Made by a program: the position numbers and the translations under genes. Below, in pieces: positions 17,876 to 63,882 of a DNA stretch of 64,000 bases (its first letter is position 1; each line of letters begins with the position of its first letter). The DNA is from Desulforhabdus amnigena (lineage in GTDB: Bacteria > Desulfobacterota > Syntrophobacteria > Syntrophobacterales > Syntrophobacteraceae), in the NCBI RefSeq assembly GCF_027925305.1, contig NZ_BSDR01000001.1, positions 3,437,001-3,501,000 on the forward strand, in the 5' to 3' direction. Below the pieces are notes generated by a model. The model saw only the letters and a list, made by a program, of their open reading frames with translations. It was not told the origin of the DNA and did no database searches.

Positions 17876-18033
17876 CTATTACTCCTTCTACGCTTGTTTG
17901 AAACCCACTTAATCACAAGGTCCACGCGTGTCATCCGAAAGGGGCGCCATGCCTTACAGATCACTGTCCCCCGCTTGCCTGGTTTCGGTACGATCGGGTA
18001 GGTTAGGGGCCTCTCGGCCCCTTTCCCCCCTTG

Positions 18034-18067
18034 GAACCGTACGTGACAGTTTCCCGTCATACGGCTC
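18034..18067 (-). ncRNA. Group II intron domain V hairpin
   Basis: A 34-nucleotide hairpin beginning GAGCCGTATG, with a GAAA loop, and ending ACGTACGGTTC. It contains the AGC catalytic triad near its 5' end and has the length and bulge expected of domain V. It lies about 50 bases after the end of the intron protein gene, as usual. Confidence 0.85.
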
Positions 18068-18116
18068 AAGCATCTCAAAAGGCAGCCCTTGTGGGGCGGC
18101 CCGGCTATGTTACCTC

Positions 18117-19605
18117 CTAAGCCGAAGCCATCGCCCGCAATTCCCGGGCTGACATGGCCGGCAGCAGCTTGCTATCCTTCTTGTTCCGTCGACGCCAGAA
18201 GTAGGCAGCGTACTCGGGAAGATAAGGATTAGCATCCGCTTTGATCTTCATAGATCTCCGAATACCCATAGCGCTCACTCGCATGACCCGGTAGAGTTTC
18301 TTTGCGGTCTTGGCCAGAACGGCGAATACATTCTTTTCGGCGGCCGACCAGTATTGCTTGATCAGCCATTGCGCGGACTTCCCTGAATGCCGTCGGCGTA
18401 CCATGCGCCAGAGTTGTTCATGAACATACGTGTCGATACGACTGAAGGCTTCCGACGCCACCACGTGGCGGTGGTAGTTGGCCCAACCCCGAAGCGTTGT
18501 ATTGAGCTTCTTGATCAAGGCCGGCATCGGCGCGCCGACGTGTTCACGGATCATTGTTCCCACCTTATGCATGAGGGCGTGAACTCCCTCAGTGGATGGC
18601 GTGATGTGCAGCACCCGGCCATGCTTTCGAAAGGTTTGCCCGAGGAACGTAAATCCGTCTTTTATGTGCGTGATCACGGTCTTCTCTGGTGAGAGCTCGA
18701 GGCCACACTCGGCAAGGAAGCCTTTAACCACCGGCTGGATGGCATCTTCCAGGATGCTTTTGGATTTTCCTGTGATGATGAAAAATCATCCGCGTAGCGG
18801 TCAAAGTTGGTACGGCACCTGCGGGGGACTGCACAGCGGACGGCTTCCTCAATCCGTCAAGCACCATATTCGAGATGGTGGGAGAAATGATCCCACCTTG
18901 GGGAACTCCCTTGCGTGTGGGATAGTGTATGCCGTTTTCCACGTATCCCGCCCTTAACCACTTATAAAGAACGGCTTTGTCCATGGGGATGTTCTTCAAC
19001 ATCCATTCAAAAGAGATGTTGTCGAAGCAGCCACGGATGTCTCCTTCGAGCACCCATGGAGCCGAATTAGGCTTCGAGAGCGCATTAAAGGCACAGGCTA
19101 CGGCATCGGCACACGATCTGCCTTCCCGAAAGCCGTAGGAGTTCTTGTCGGCTGTCGTTTCGGCTACGGGCGCCAGGCCCAGCTTATGAAGTGCTTGTTG
19201 CGCCCTGTCATACATGGTGGGAATCGATAGGGGCCGGAGTTTTCCGTTCTTCTTTTCGATATAAATCCTCCTCAAGGGCTGAGGATGATAGGCACGTCTG
19301 CGCAGGCTGCAAACAGCCCGCCATTTGGTTCGAGCGCCTTGCCACAGGACGCCGTCAACACCGGGGGTCTTGTTCCCCTTGTTGGAGGTCACTCGTTTTA
19401 CAGCCAGTAGCTTGGCGTTGAACGAATGGGTTAACAGATATTGTAGTGATCAAGCCTTATTCCATCTGTTTTCCTTCACAGCCTTTGCGATACGAACCTG
19501 CAACCTTCCGACTTCCCGCCGGGCTTCCTTCCAGTCAATGGAGCTCCACTTGTCGGCGTCATCTTTGAGTGCACCAGCCTTTTGAGCCGTCATTTGCTTT
19601 CTCAT
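18117..19605 (-). pseudogene. ltrA: Group II intron reverse transcriptase/maturase, disrupted
   Basis: The N-terminus (QMTAQKAGALKD, ARREVGRLQVRIAKAVKENR) is separated from the reverse transcriptase domain by an in-frame TGA near 19450, where the sequence continues LQYLLTHSFNAKLLAVKRV in the same frame. The RT core follows (NKGNKTPGVDGV, FREGRSCADAV, GVPQGGIISPTISN). About 18850 a base is lost, and at 18781-18785 the A run (Ts in the gene) has extra bases, so the catalytic RYADDF lies in a third frame. The maturase region resumes at KGFLAECGLELSPEKT and runs to the stop at 18117. Three lesions make it inactive. Confidence 0.88.
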
Positions 19606-20249
19606 CTTCAAAGGTTCTACCTGTTCTCTCGCAAAGAGACACCAGTTGGACGTCTGCACGCTCGTTCACCGGGGCTGAAGCCTGCCGGTTTTGGCGTTGA
19701 GCCATGTTTCATGCCCTATCTTTCGGCTTTCCCGAAAGCCTTCGCTTCTTCCAACCTCTTCCTCCCGCCTCTCCATCGGCATGCCTTGCGGTTTGCTTGC
19801 CTGGACTTGCTCCAGGCGAAGGACGGGGTTACCACGTTCCTCACAGTTGATCCTATGGATGACTTAGGTGTGCCCTCTACGCCGGAGGTCCAACGGTTCC
19901 GTGCAGGCAGTTAGGAGACCTGCATCCTGACCTCTTGCCGCAAACTCTGGGAAGCGGCCTTAGACCTGGTACCACTTCTTGTTAATCCTCGTAGGTCCGT
20001 AGCTCGTTGACGACGCTTGAGAGTATTCAATTACTTTCACCATATCACCCGACCCTAGCCCTTAACCGGGGAGGATTCCCGGAGGGGCTCGCCTGTCACC
20101 ATTTGAGCCCGATTCGGTACATTGTCCGCAGGGCTTCGCACCCCGTCATCAGCGCGACGGTAGCACGCCTGCGTAGGGTCCGGCAGGAACATGCCGGGTA
20201 CTCCAGGTAACTACCTGAGTACACTCAACTATGCGACATCGTGTCGCAC

Positions 20250-35078: not shown

Positions 35079-35183
35079 GTTCAATATTGGGGGTTGAGCA
35101 GATCGAGTTTTTTGGGTATCTCCTTTGGGTGATGAGTATGATGTATGGTACATAAATTTCAAACGTATGGGAAAAAAGAAAGA

Positions 35184-35627
35184 ATGGGGTATCCAGTCAT
35201 GCAAGAATCTTCTGACATTCTTATGGGCACTGTTCGGGAATATGCGGAGGCTGAGAAAGAAGAGGTTTACGGAGAAAAGCTTTTCGATCTGAATCGGGAA
35301 CCCACTCTCATGGGAAGAATGGAAAATCCGACTTCGTCGGGTATCATCACGGGTCACTGTGGTGAAACCATGGAAATATATCTGCGCATTGAAGGAGAAC
35401 GTATCGAGGAAATAAGCTTTTTCTCTGACGGGTGTGCTTCCAGCCTGGCGTGTGGTTCCGTGGCGGCGGAACTGGCAAGAGGAAAAAACATAGACGATGC
35501 TGCGGCGATAGAGGGAGATACAATCCTCATGGTGCTCAAGGGACTGACCGAAGAAGAGACCCACTGCGCTTATCTGGCTGCAGAGGCATTGCATGCTGCC
35601 ATCCACAACTGGATGTTGAGGCAGTAA
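35184..35627 (+). CDS. IscU/NifU-like iron-sulfur cluster scaffold
   Basis: About 147 residues. The three cluster-binding cysteines of the IscU fold are recognisable in GHCGETMEIYLRI, FSDGCASSLACGSVAAELA and EETHCAYLAAEALHAAI. The first motif lacks the usual aspartate (GxCGD becomes GHCGE). Such proteins assemble Fe-S clusters; no cysteine desulfurase lies nearby. The start is uncertain: ATGs at 35145, 35184 and 35199 all lack a strong ribosome-binding site. A terminator follows. Confidence 0.82.
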   Translation: MGYPVMQESSDILMGTVREYAEAEKEEVYGEKLFDLNREPTLMGRMENPTSSGIITGHCGETMEIYLRIEGERIEEISFFSDGCASSLACGSVAAELARGKNIDDAAAIEGDTILMVLKGLTEEETHCAYLAAEALHAAIHNWMLRQ

Positions 35628-35640
35628 CGTAGCCAAGTGA

Positions 35641-35664
35641 GGGGACCGGAGGGTCCCCTTTTTC
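35641..35664 (+). terminator. Intrinsic terminator after the IscU-like gene
   Basis: GGGGACC-ggag-GGTCCCC (35641-35658) followed by TTTTT. It stands 14 bases after the stop codon and touches the stop of the convergent small ORF. Confidence 0.85.
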
Positions 35665-35915
35665 TATCCGCAGAGTCTCAAAGGGGTTCCCTGGATTTCG
35701 AAGGCGTCCTGGGCTTCGCTGTATGCAGCCCTGACACAAAAGACCGTGTGAACTCCCTGAGTCATCATCTTCCACCAACCGTAGGCGATATCCGATTCGG
35801 AGGTTGCAAGACACACCCGGTCCGCTCCCAACCGGTTCCGCGTCTCGTCCAAGTCCATTGTATCCTGCAATGCGTTTTTCCCTTCCGTCACGTAAAGAAT
35901 GAAGCCTTTTTTCAT
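35664..35915 (-). CDS. Orphan 83-residue protein under a cobalamin riboswitch
   Basis: A small soluble protein starting MKKGFILYVTEGKNALQD, with DRVCLATSESDIAYGWWKMM in the middle and FCVRAAYSEAQDAFEIQG near the end. Three cysteines (in VCLAT, FCVRA and the terminal LCG) but no paired motif. I do not recognise the family. GGAGG stands at a good distance from the ATG at 35915. Upstream on the same strand are a stable hairpin (35942-35967), an intrinsic terminator (36012-36046) and a cobalamin riboswitch (36205-36378); it is the only gene between these and the convergent IscU gene, so B12 should repress it. A role in corrinoid uptake, synthesis or B12-sparing is inference. Confidence 0.78.
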   Translation of the reverse strand: MKKGFILYVTEGKNALQDTMDLDETRNRLGADRVCLATSESDIAYGWWKMMTQGVHTVFCVRAAYSEAQDAFEIQGTPLRLCG

Positions 35916-35941
35916 CCTGGACCTCCATGAACGTTGAAGAG

Positions 35942-35967
35942 TCCCTGGAAGCACGAGTGCTTCCAGG
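35942..35967 (-). promoter_or_regulatory. Stable hairpin just upstream of the small ORF
   Basis: A perfect 11-base stem with a 4-base loop (CCCTGGAAGCA-CGAG-TGCTTCCAGGG) lies between the attenuator and the ribosome-binding site of the 83-residue ORF, with no U tract after it. It may protect or process the mRNA. Confidence 0.6.
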
Positions 35968-36011
35968 GGGTAAGAGGTTAGTGTGTGTTGAGGTAGGGCT
36001 GGTGCTGAAGC

Positions 36012-36046
36012 AAAAAAAAATCCTTAGAGCCGAAGCTCTAAGGATT
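36012..36046 (-). terminator. Intrinsic terminator in the riboswitch leader (attenuator)
   Basis: On the minus strand AATCCTTAGAGC-ttcg-GCTCTAAGGATT is a perfect 12-base stem with a UUCG loop followed by a run of Ts. It lies about 160 bases after the cobalamin aptamer and about 100 bases before the small ORF, the position of an expression platform that stops transcription when cobalamin binds. Confidence 0.85.
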
Positions 36047-36204
36047 GCACCCTGTTTAAACTTGATCCTTAGGGAAGACTATACGGGCATTGCAGACATT
36101 TTGCATATGAAAGGCATCGCTTTCGTAGAGTAGAATTCCCGGCCTGTAAAGCCGATGAGGTCTGCACTCCGTATTCGAGGTCCTTCAGTATTCTACCGTA
36201 CCGA

Positions 36205-36378
36205 GTCCTCAAGTGGTCAGGCTGGTCTTCTGGCTCTCGGATCTCTCTACTCACCGCACCTTCCCATCACATCCCGAATGTGACAGTGGCTTTAAAGGCG
36301 GCTTTCGTCCCCGATCACAGCGGCGGGACCGCTCCCGATTGTCACGGGATTCCCTTTTAAGCTTTGCAGCACCTGATC
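36205..36378 (-). ncRNA. Cobalamin riboswitch (aptamer)
   Basis: Minus-strand reading gives the conserved blocks of the B12 aptamer in order: TTAAAAGGGAA, CCGTGACAATCGGG, AGCGGTCCCGCCGCTGTGA, GCCACTG, GATGGGAAGG and GAGCCAGAAGACCAGCC. Paired arms around them (CACATTCGGGATGTG; GGTGC near the 5' end) agree with the known fold. It points away from the quinone oxidoreductase gene, which ends at 36454, and toward the terminator and the 83-residue ORF. Ligand is expected to be adenosylcobalamin or another cobalamin. Confidence 0.93.
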
Positions 36379-36453
36379 ACTATGCAATTATATCGAGTAT
36401 TCCTCTACTACAAGGGGGGATGGCTGTCAAGTCTCATTTACAAATATTTCTAT

Positions 36454-37482
36454 CTACGGTTCGAGGACGATCTTTCCAAACTGGTCGCCCTTTTCCATGA
36501 TTTCGAAAGCCCGGCGCCCTTCTTTGAGGGGCATGATCCGATGGATGACAGGTTTCAGTTTTCCCGCCCAGAGGAGAGAGGTCACTTCTCTGAAGTCCTG
36601 ATGTGTGCCCATTGTGCTTCCTATGAGACTGATCTGCTTGCTGAAGATGAAGCGGATATCGATTTCGGCCTGAGGGCCGCTCGTGTTTCCCACTATGACG
36701 ATGCGGCCTCCACGCGCCACCGCTCTCATGCTCTTGTGGATGGTGGCGGCTCCCACGTTGTCCACTACGACATCCACGCCGCGTTTGTCCGTGAGCTTTA
36801 ACACTTCCCTTTCCCAGTCGCATTTGGAACGATCCAGAACGATATCGGCTCCCAGCTCCCGTGCGCCGGCTGCCTTTTCTTCATTGCCTGCCACCACGTA
36901 AACGGTTGCCCCTGCAAGCTTTGCAATTTGGATGGCCATGCTGTTCACTCCGCCTCCGGCCCCCACTACCAGAACCGATTCTCCAACACGCAGTTTGGCT
37001 CGGTGGATGAGCATGCGCCAGGCTGTGAGGGTAACCAGGAGAGGGGCCGCTGCTGACGGAAAATCCATATCCTGCGGCATGGCCATGAGACTCTCCGCCG
37101 GGACGACCACATATTCCGCCAACCCTCCGCGTACCTGTTCGCCAAGAATGTGGTAACCGGGACTCAGGCTATGTTCTCCGCGCCGGGTGAATTCATCCTC
37201 TACGGAGTTTGAACCCGGATCCACCACCACACGGCTTCCCAGGCTCCAACCGGTGACTCCCGGCCCCAGTCCCGCCACAATACCGGCAACATCCGAGCCG
37301 CCCCAGTGGGGCATCGGCAACTTAAGTCCCGGCCAGCCCCGCCGTACCCAAATGTCCAAATGATTGAGGGCGCAGGCTTTGACCTGGATGAGAACCTCAC
37401 CCGGTGCCGGTTGAAGATCCGGAACATCGCAGTACCGTATGACTTCAGGCCCCCCGTGTTCGTGGAAACAGAGTGCTTTCAT
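36454..37482 (-). CDS. Zinc-less quinone oxidoreductase/alcohol dehydrogenase (MDR superfamily)
   Basis: A 342-residue medium-chain dehydrogenase. The N-terminal catalytic domain starts MKALCFHEHGGPEVIRY, has CALNHLDIWVRRGWPG and the HWGGSDVAGIVAGLGPGV stretch. The nucleotide-binding loop is VLVVGAGGGVNSMAIQIAK. No four-cysteine structural zinc lobe is seen, which points to the quinone oxidoreductase or enoyl-reductase branch. It would reduce a quinone or activated alkene with NAD(P)H. AAGGAGG precedes the ATG. The riboswitch starts 76 bases after its stop and is a separate unit. Confidence 0.83.
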   Translation of the reverse strand: MKALCFHEHGGPEVIRYCDVPDLQPAPGEVLIQVKACALNHLDIWVRRGWPGLKLPMPHWGGSDVAGIVAGLGPGVTGWSLGSRVVVDPGSNSVEDEFTRRGEHSLSPGYHILGEQVRGGLAEYVVVPAESLMAMPQDMDFPSAAAPLLVTLTAWRMLIHRAKLRVGESVLVVGAGGGVNSMAIQIAKLAGATVYVVAGNEEKAAGARELGADIVLDRSKCDWEREVLKLTDKRGVDVVVDNVGAATIHKSMRAVARGGRIVIVGNTSGPQAEIDIRFIFSKQISLIGSTMGTHQDFREVTSLLWAGKLKPVIHRIMPLKEGRRAFEIMEKGDQFGKIVLEP

Positions 37483-61356: not shown

Positions 61357-61875
61357 GAAATGCCTCCTTTATGTGATTTTATGTCATTGAGGAGCAAACA
61401 TCATGGATGTATGCAATCGTCCTGTGGAACCGACATTCACATGAACCACTACATAGCAAATGCGGCGAACCTGTCAAAAGGAATATTGGAACGCAGGATT
61501 CCCGCAGCAAAATGTCGCATACCATTCACAACGGCTTTCCTCCGGTACATGCCTCACGAAACCGGCTCTTCGGATAGAAAAGATCTTGCCTGTTTTCAGG
61601 AGAAGCGTTTTTGAAAGTCACCTCCCAAACAGGAACATTCTTGCATTTGGATGTCAAAGGTGGCATTTATGACTCATATTGCTTTCGATGAGAGTGATGG
61701 AGTCCACTCGAACCGCCGTATGAGGCTGATGACCCCTACTGTGGCGAGCTCGCCGGGTGGGAGATTCATCTGAGCACAATGATCGATTGGAAAAGCTCCT
61801 GCCGGGACGAACTTGAAGGGGCTTTTTTATAACTCAATTCCTATCCTGTCCAAAATGAATGAAGGAGGAAGCCGC
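61357..61875. other. Intergenic region upstream of eno, no gene seen
   Basis: About 520 bases. A weak hairpin (AAAAGCTCC...GGGGCTTTTTT, near 61789-61829) could be a terminator or a leader structure just before the enolase gene. Frames here have poor composition. Confidence 0.4.
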
Positions 61876-63701: not shown

Positions 63702-63854
63702 CTCGCCGGCATCACTTTATTGCACTGAGCAATTTTAGCTTGACTTTTCGACCCTTCCCGATGAAACATTTTGATAACGGGAGGAAATTTCTCTCATATG
63801 TTCAGCCATAAGGCAATGAAGTCTGCCGGAACTGCCCGGCCATTCGGGCTAATG

Positions 63855-63882
63855 ACTTCTACCCTTGGAGTAGAAGTTTTTT
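63855..63882 (+). terminator. Intrinsic terminator
   Basis: ACTTCTAC-ccttgga-GTAGAAGT followed by TTTTT (63855-63882) stands about 150 bases after the last gene. The remaining sequence to 64000 has no gene. Confidence 0.75.

Follow-up and report, generated by a model that had tools for sequence, protein, structure and literature searches.

Layout of the locus and predicted attenuation

On the minus strand of the window, by which we mean the whole stretch of 64,000 nucleotides analysed, a cobalamin riboswitch is followed by an intrinsic terminator and by an open reading frame (ORF) for a protein of 83 amino acids. The features of the locus are as follows.

36203-36391, minus strand: cobalamin riboswitch aptamer, RF00174, full length (cmscan of the whole window)
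36387-36392, minus strand: TATAAT, candidate -10 element directly 5' of the aptamer, with a weak -35 (read by eye)
36038-36072, minus strand: predicted antiterminator of 8 bp, in which CUAAGGAU (36072-36065) pairs with AUCCUUAG (36045-36038) (folding prediction)
36010-36046, minus strand: intrinsic terminator with a 12-bp stem and UUCG loop (36046-36019) and a T run (-17.8 kcal/mol)
35943-35968, minus strand: second perfect hairpin, 11 bp, without T run, between terminator and start codon (-19.5 kcal/mol)
35922-35926, minus strand: Shine-Dalgarno sequence GGAGG, 6 nt before the ATG (read in the sequence)
35664-35915, minus strand: ORF of 83 amino acids, member of an undescribed riboswitch-linked family of small alpha/beta proteins (translation and homologues)
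35639-35660, plus strand: terminator-like hairpin 3' of a convergent IscU-like gene, with a T run on the plus strand only

The upstream gene on the same strand encodes a zinc-type alcohol dehydrogenase and ends at 36454, and 3' of the 83-residue ORF there is only the convergent NifU_N/IscU-like gene (35145-35627; PF01592, E 1.2e-23). A longer ORF in another frame (35536-35928, 130 amino acids) overlaps the small one, but the frame conserved in relatives is that of the 83-residue protein. An earlier note on this DNA had described a complete cobalamin aptamer on the minus strand, a terminator of 12 base pairs with a UUCG loop and a T run, and the ORF at 35664-35915 with its GGAGG and the convergent IscU-like gene behind it; all of these were located where it had put them, the terminator at 36046-36010. 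The RF00174 search that it had proposed gave a significant match at 36203-36391 (E 4.4e-26), with 108 bits at a gathering score of 31.5 and covering model positions 1-189, and this aptamer is the fourth best of 11 RF00174 matches in the genome. The TATAAT at 36387-36392 was not flagged by a consensus promoter scan with 16-18 nt spacing and is listed as a candidate only. Elsewhere in the window, two fluoride riboswitches (RF01734, 45 and 49 bits) lie about 2 kb apart on the plus strand at 61684-61745 and 63803-63868, and a group II intron occupies 17993-20198 on the minus strand (D1-D4-7 match at 20058-20198, Intron_gpII at 17993-18069).

When folding of the growing transcript was simulated, the antiterminator had a probability of 0.97-1.0 until the 3' arm of the terminator was complete, and of 0 thereafter; as isolated hairpins, terminator and antiterminator amount to -17.8 and -7.0 kcal/mol, respectively. 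The predicted structures therefore place, 3' of the aptamer, a terminator that is mutually exclusive with an antiterminator, an arrangement typical of transcription off-switches. By analogy with known cobalamin riboswitches, ligand binding should favour the terminator. An adenosylcobalamin-type riboswitch would control the gene of the 83-residue protein through attenuation of transcription: under B12 scarcity, the antiterminator would form and the gene would be transcribed, and when B12 is bound, the terminator would form and transcription of the gene would stop. Riboswitch and attenuation are in themselves ordinary. The full-length aptamer of 108 bits, followed by a choice between antiterminator and terminator, resembles known RF00174 attenuators and has no unusual features. 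The distance from aptamer to terminator is about 164 nt here, whereas it is about 60-95 nt in most relatives.

In the structure predicted for the complete leader, most of the Shine-Dalgarno region is base-paired, so that translational control may contribute in addition to attenuation. That the riboswitch acts mainly on translation, or that a second promoter lies 3' of the terminator, seems improbable to us: this pairing and the strong second hairpin at 35943-35968 would fit such an arrangement, but terminators are conserved among relatives, being found 3' of the riboswitch in 56 of 61 homologue leaders and often in near-identical form (AATCCTTAGAGC-loop-GCTCTAAGGATT), and the consensus scan gave no sigma-70-like site on the same strand between terminator and ORF.

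The protein family and its linkage to cobalamin riboswitches

Homologues of the 83-residue protein, mostly with 33-53% identity, were obtained from 37 of 60 related genomes, and a profile search across the phylum detected the family in 30 of 297 genomes. In the class of G303, 28 of 29 genomes and all 22 of good quality have it, Desulfobacca acetoxidans among the latter, and it is also present in Syntrophobacter fumaroxidans. A scan of a collection of genome contigs with the single protein returned no homologue and a first profile was too diverse, whereas a closer profile gave 8 named loci; named members come from Desulfoferrobacter suflitae and from Syntrophobacteraceae MAGs. Among viral contigs and plasmids no family member was found.

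In total, 89 homologous loci from the same bacterial phylum were considered, namely a first set of 70, which includes the locus described here, and a hold-out of 19. The proteins are mostly 81-90 amino acids long, start with MK.G and share Tyr8, Trp47, Gly54 and, at the C-terminal end or close to it, Arg-Leu-x-Gly; near-invariant are Gly4, Tyr8, Trp47, Gly54, Arg80, Leu81 and Gly83. Most homologues are preceded by a GGAGG-like site. Judged by length, start and C-terminal RLxG, all kept across the 89 loci, the ORF is a real gene.

RF00174 was found upstream on the same strand in 80 of the 89 loci. In the first set, where a riboswitch on the same strand and at most 3 kb upstream was counted, 61 of 70 loci had one. 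The hold-out came from the class of G303 and was fetched after the hypothesis had been formed; some genomes of this class were already in the first set, and only new loci were counted. All 19 carried RF00174 (108-130 bits) upstream on the same strand. Related genomes have about 5 cobalamin riboswitches each, so that the linkage is far beyond chance: a random gene would have a riboswitch on its own strand at most 500 nt upstream with a probability of roughly 0.03%. Loci of related genomes are not independent events, and the neighbouring genes vary between genomes while the riboswitch stays. Where one genome has several copies of the gene, each has a riboswitch (two copies in G011, three in G323). 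It is therefore extremely improbable that riboswitch and ORF are chance neighbours, with the riboswitch serving something else and the ORF being incidental. The ORF is indeed short and overlapped by a longer frame, but linkage in 80 of 89 homologues, when related genomes have about five riboswitches each, and the outcome of the hold-out contradict this explanation.

Among the nine loci of the first set without RF00174, three have at most 410 nt of contig on the upstream side and three are members of a divergent subfamily. The last three, G055, G046 and G058, offer enough upstream sequence, yet no riboswitch was detectable in searches at E up to 1. The divergent subfamily (L111 in G139, L113 in G104, L115 in G067) has a C-terminal extension, lacks the riboswitch and lies near rplM/rpsI-like, argC-like and mutS-like genes; G104 and G139 carry the riboswitch-linked form besides.

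We consider it likely, with good confidence, that the 83-residue gene is under riboswitch control and belongs to the B12 regulon. That it is a new member of this regulon, and that homologues might also lie behind cobalamin riboswitches, had been proposed or asked for by the earlier note, and the conserved family with its linkage in 61 of 70 and then 19 of 19 loci bears both out.

Gene neighbourhood and predicted protein

In 29 of the 70 loci of the first set (28 by clustering and S. fumaroxidans by gene positions), a CbiK-family gene adjoins the small gene, sometimes overlapping it by a few bases. The exemplar of these CbiK proteins matches PF06180 (E 8e-70) and, judged by eye, has an N-terminal signal peptide. 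In about ten further loci the neighbour encodes a TonB-dependent receptor (exemplar PF00593/PF07715), and the genes often found 3' of these receptors are putatively those for BtuF, BtuC and BtuD. In another group (L067-L072, L075, L076), the genes 3' of the small gene keep a conserved order and encode a protein with the domains PCP_red, NIR_SIR and 4Fe-4S, then an epimerase-like and then a site-2-protease-like protein; in this group the riboswitch score is down at 42-45 bits in two genomes and the riboswitch is undetected in two, as if decaying.

In G001, a relative from the same genus, the order is riboswitch, small gene and cbiK. In the present genome cbiK lies elsewhere, under a riboswitch of its own (2374877-2375758); a TGA within it was ruled out as an internal stop, the frame being open to its normal end. 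In about 11 of 60 relatives the small gene occurs without a strong CbiK match and in about 18 of 60 CbiK occurs without the small gene (many of these being draft genomes), a co-occurrence that rules out CbiK as an obligate partner. The earlier note had called the gene a lone one. This holds here and in several relatives. More often, the small gene lies beside cbiK or TonB/B12 uptake genes, and in many genomes it appears to share an operon with the gene for a CbiK-type chelatase or with a TonB receptor/BtuF set, so that being alone is a local state and not a trait of the family.

Most of the remaining riboswitches in this genome lie before genes that can be recognised as B12 genes; the products encoded 3' of the remaining riboswitches include a Peripla_BP_2 protein, TonB receptors with CobN, a tetrapyrrole methylase, ThiC-family, CobT-like and ExbB proteins. 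Two of these sites are tandem pairs. At C1:2541078-2541279 and 2541525-2541709 (L120), two cobalamin riboswitches lie about 245 nt apart, and a gene for methylmalonyl-CoA mutase (PF01642), a B12-dependent enzyme, lies about 0.8 kb 3' of them; the second pair (C1:2939346-2939910, L118) precedes a TonB receptor and CobN. At C1:1870230 (L122) a cobalamin riboswitch lies before an ExbB-like gene followed by ExbD/TonB-like ORFs, and at C1:3282086 (L121) one precedes a ThiC-family gene, possibly encoding the anaerobic benzimidazole enzyme BzaF.

AlphaFold, run with 11 sequences, predicted with confidence a compact fold for the 83-residue protein (pLDDT 92.2, pTM 0.83) with the topology strand-helix-strand-helix-strand-strand. 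A Foldseek comparison of this fold with PDB and viral structures gave no match at E 0.001. Searches of Pfam, NCBIfam and PDB sequences with the protein and with profiles gave no usable match, the weak ones being to single members with poor E-values, and profile comparison with the neighbouring CbiK, BtuF, TonB receptor, BtuC and BtuD proteins revealed no similarity. Neither a signal peptide nor a membrane segment can be made out in the sequence of the small protein, from which we infer that it is cytosolic. The view of the earlier note that the product resembles none of the known categories of proteins behind B12 riboswitches thus agrees with these searches, in which neither a Pfam, NCBIfam or PDB relative nor a membrane segment was seen. 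The residues conserved in the family are glycine, aromatic residues and arginine, and an alignment of 66 homologues has no conserved cysteine, histidine or acidic residue. The absence of conserved metal ligands favours an organic ligand or a protein partner over cobalt, and the protein probably binds an organic ligand (a corrinoid or other tetrapyrrole) or a partner protein and not a metal ion.

Possible roles and comparison with known B12 regulons

While the regulatory part of our reading is strong, the biochemical role is one that we infer. The role that we favour for the 83-residue protein is that of an intracellular accessory of corrinoid or cobalt acquisition, made when B12 runs short and acting with a TonB/BtuFCD uptake route and a CbiK-type chelatase; we propose such a specific role in uptake or handling tentatively, at somewhat less than even chances. 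The neighbouring CbiK has a signal peptide, so that the mature enzyme would be out of reach of a cytosolic protein; moreover, CbiK is not required and no relative in fold points to a ligand, all of which count against this role. Its main rival is an effector that spares B12, made at low B12 and adjusting B12-dependent metabolism or regulation, for instance by inhibiting or protecting a corrinoid enzyme, and not serving uptake. Such an effector would suit a small gene that has a riboswitch to itself here and in several relatives, has no obligate partner gene and encodes no metal-binding residues, but the recognisable neighbours are acquisition genes (CbiK, TonB receptor, BtuF) and not genes for corrinoid enzymes, and we regard it as unlikely.

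Two further explanations start from the neighbourhood of cbiK. Adjacency in 29 of 70 loci, sometimes with overlap, would be expected of a cobalt metallochaperone serving the CbiK-type chelatase; the lack of any conserved Cys, His, Asp or Glu, the signal peptide that CbiK but not the small protein has in this genome, and the many genomes with the small gene or CbiK alone make this improbable. Still further down, and very improbable, we place a half-domain or relic of a class II chelatase (CbiX/CbiK fold) that would have retained the riboswitch. CbiX-S is a small alpha/beta homodimer (PMC7689651), and both the small alpha/beta protein and the gene adjacency would be in keeping with such an origin. 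Alignment with the neighbouring CbiK proteins by hhalign gave no match (probability 0.5%), which rejects the identity as a chelatase half-domain; no sequence homology to the chelatase was seen, the family has no conserved His, and no chelatase occurs among the PDB fold matches listed. Returning to a role in acquisition, we see a fair possibility, though one that falls short of even, that this undescribed B12-repressed family performs a new step in corrinoid or cobalt acquisition, for example as an intracellular corrinoid-binding carrier with a fold absent from the PDB. In broader terms, the 83-residue protein is very probably an overlooked part of B12 acquisition or handling in sulfate-reducing and syntrophic bacteria.

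The metabolism of Desulfobacca acetoxidans and Syntrophobacter fumaroxidans uses B12 enzymes. The division of B12 regulons into synthesis, transport and isoenzymes is two decades old. A survey of RNA regulons likewise gives, in the portion available, B12 synthesis, B12 or cobalt transport and B12-independent isoenzymes as categories (PMC3766115). Being conserved 3' of cobalamin riboswitches across genomes and falling into no known category, the 83-residue protein owes its place in the B12 regulon to its regulation and not to a known function. A literature search, with limited coverage of subscription journals, gave no description of the family, and a small protein of this kind is not named in the available portions of PMC545781 and PMC3766115, although an earlier mention as a hypothetical gene is possible. 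A periplasmic cobaltochelatase, CbiK-P, under a cobalamin riboswitch is described in PMC11124144, citing Lobo et al. (2017). The gene most often found beside the small gene is a homologue of the one for CbiK-P (PF06180 with signal peptide), and in the present genome this homologue has a riboswitch of its own; the 83-residue protein differs from CbiK-P in being separate, unrelated and apparently cytosolic. According to the portion available of the account of the delta-proteobacterial B12 regulon (Genome Biol 2004, PMC545781), B12 elements precede cbiK-cbiL, btuCDF and nrdDG. Within that scope, riboswitch class and kinds of neighbours (CbiK, B12 transport) are the same as here, whereas the 83-residue protein is not recognisable as a synthesis enzyme, transporter or B12-independent isoenzyme. 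A conserved family tied to riboswitches and outside all three classes suggests that one component of B12 handling is missing from the known set.
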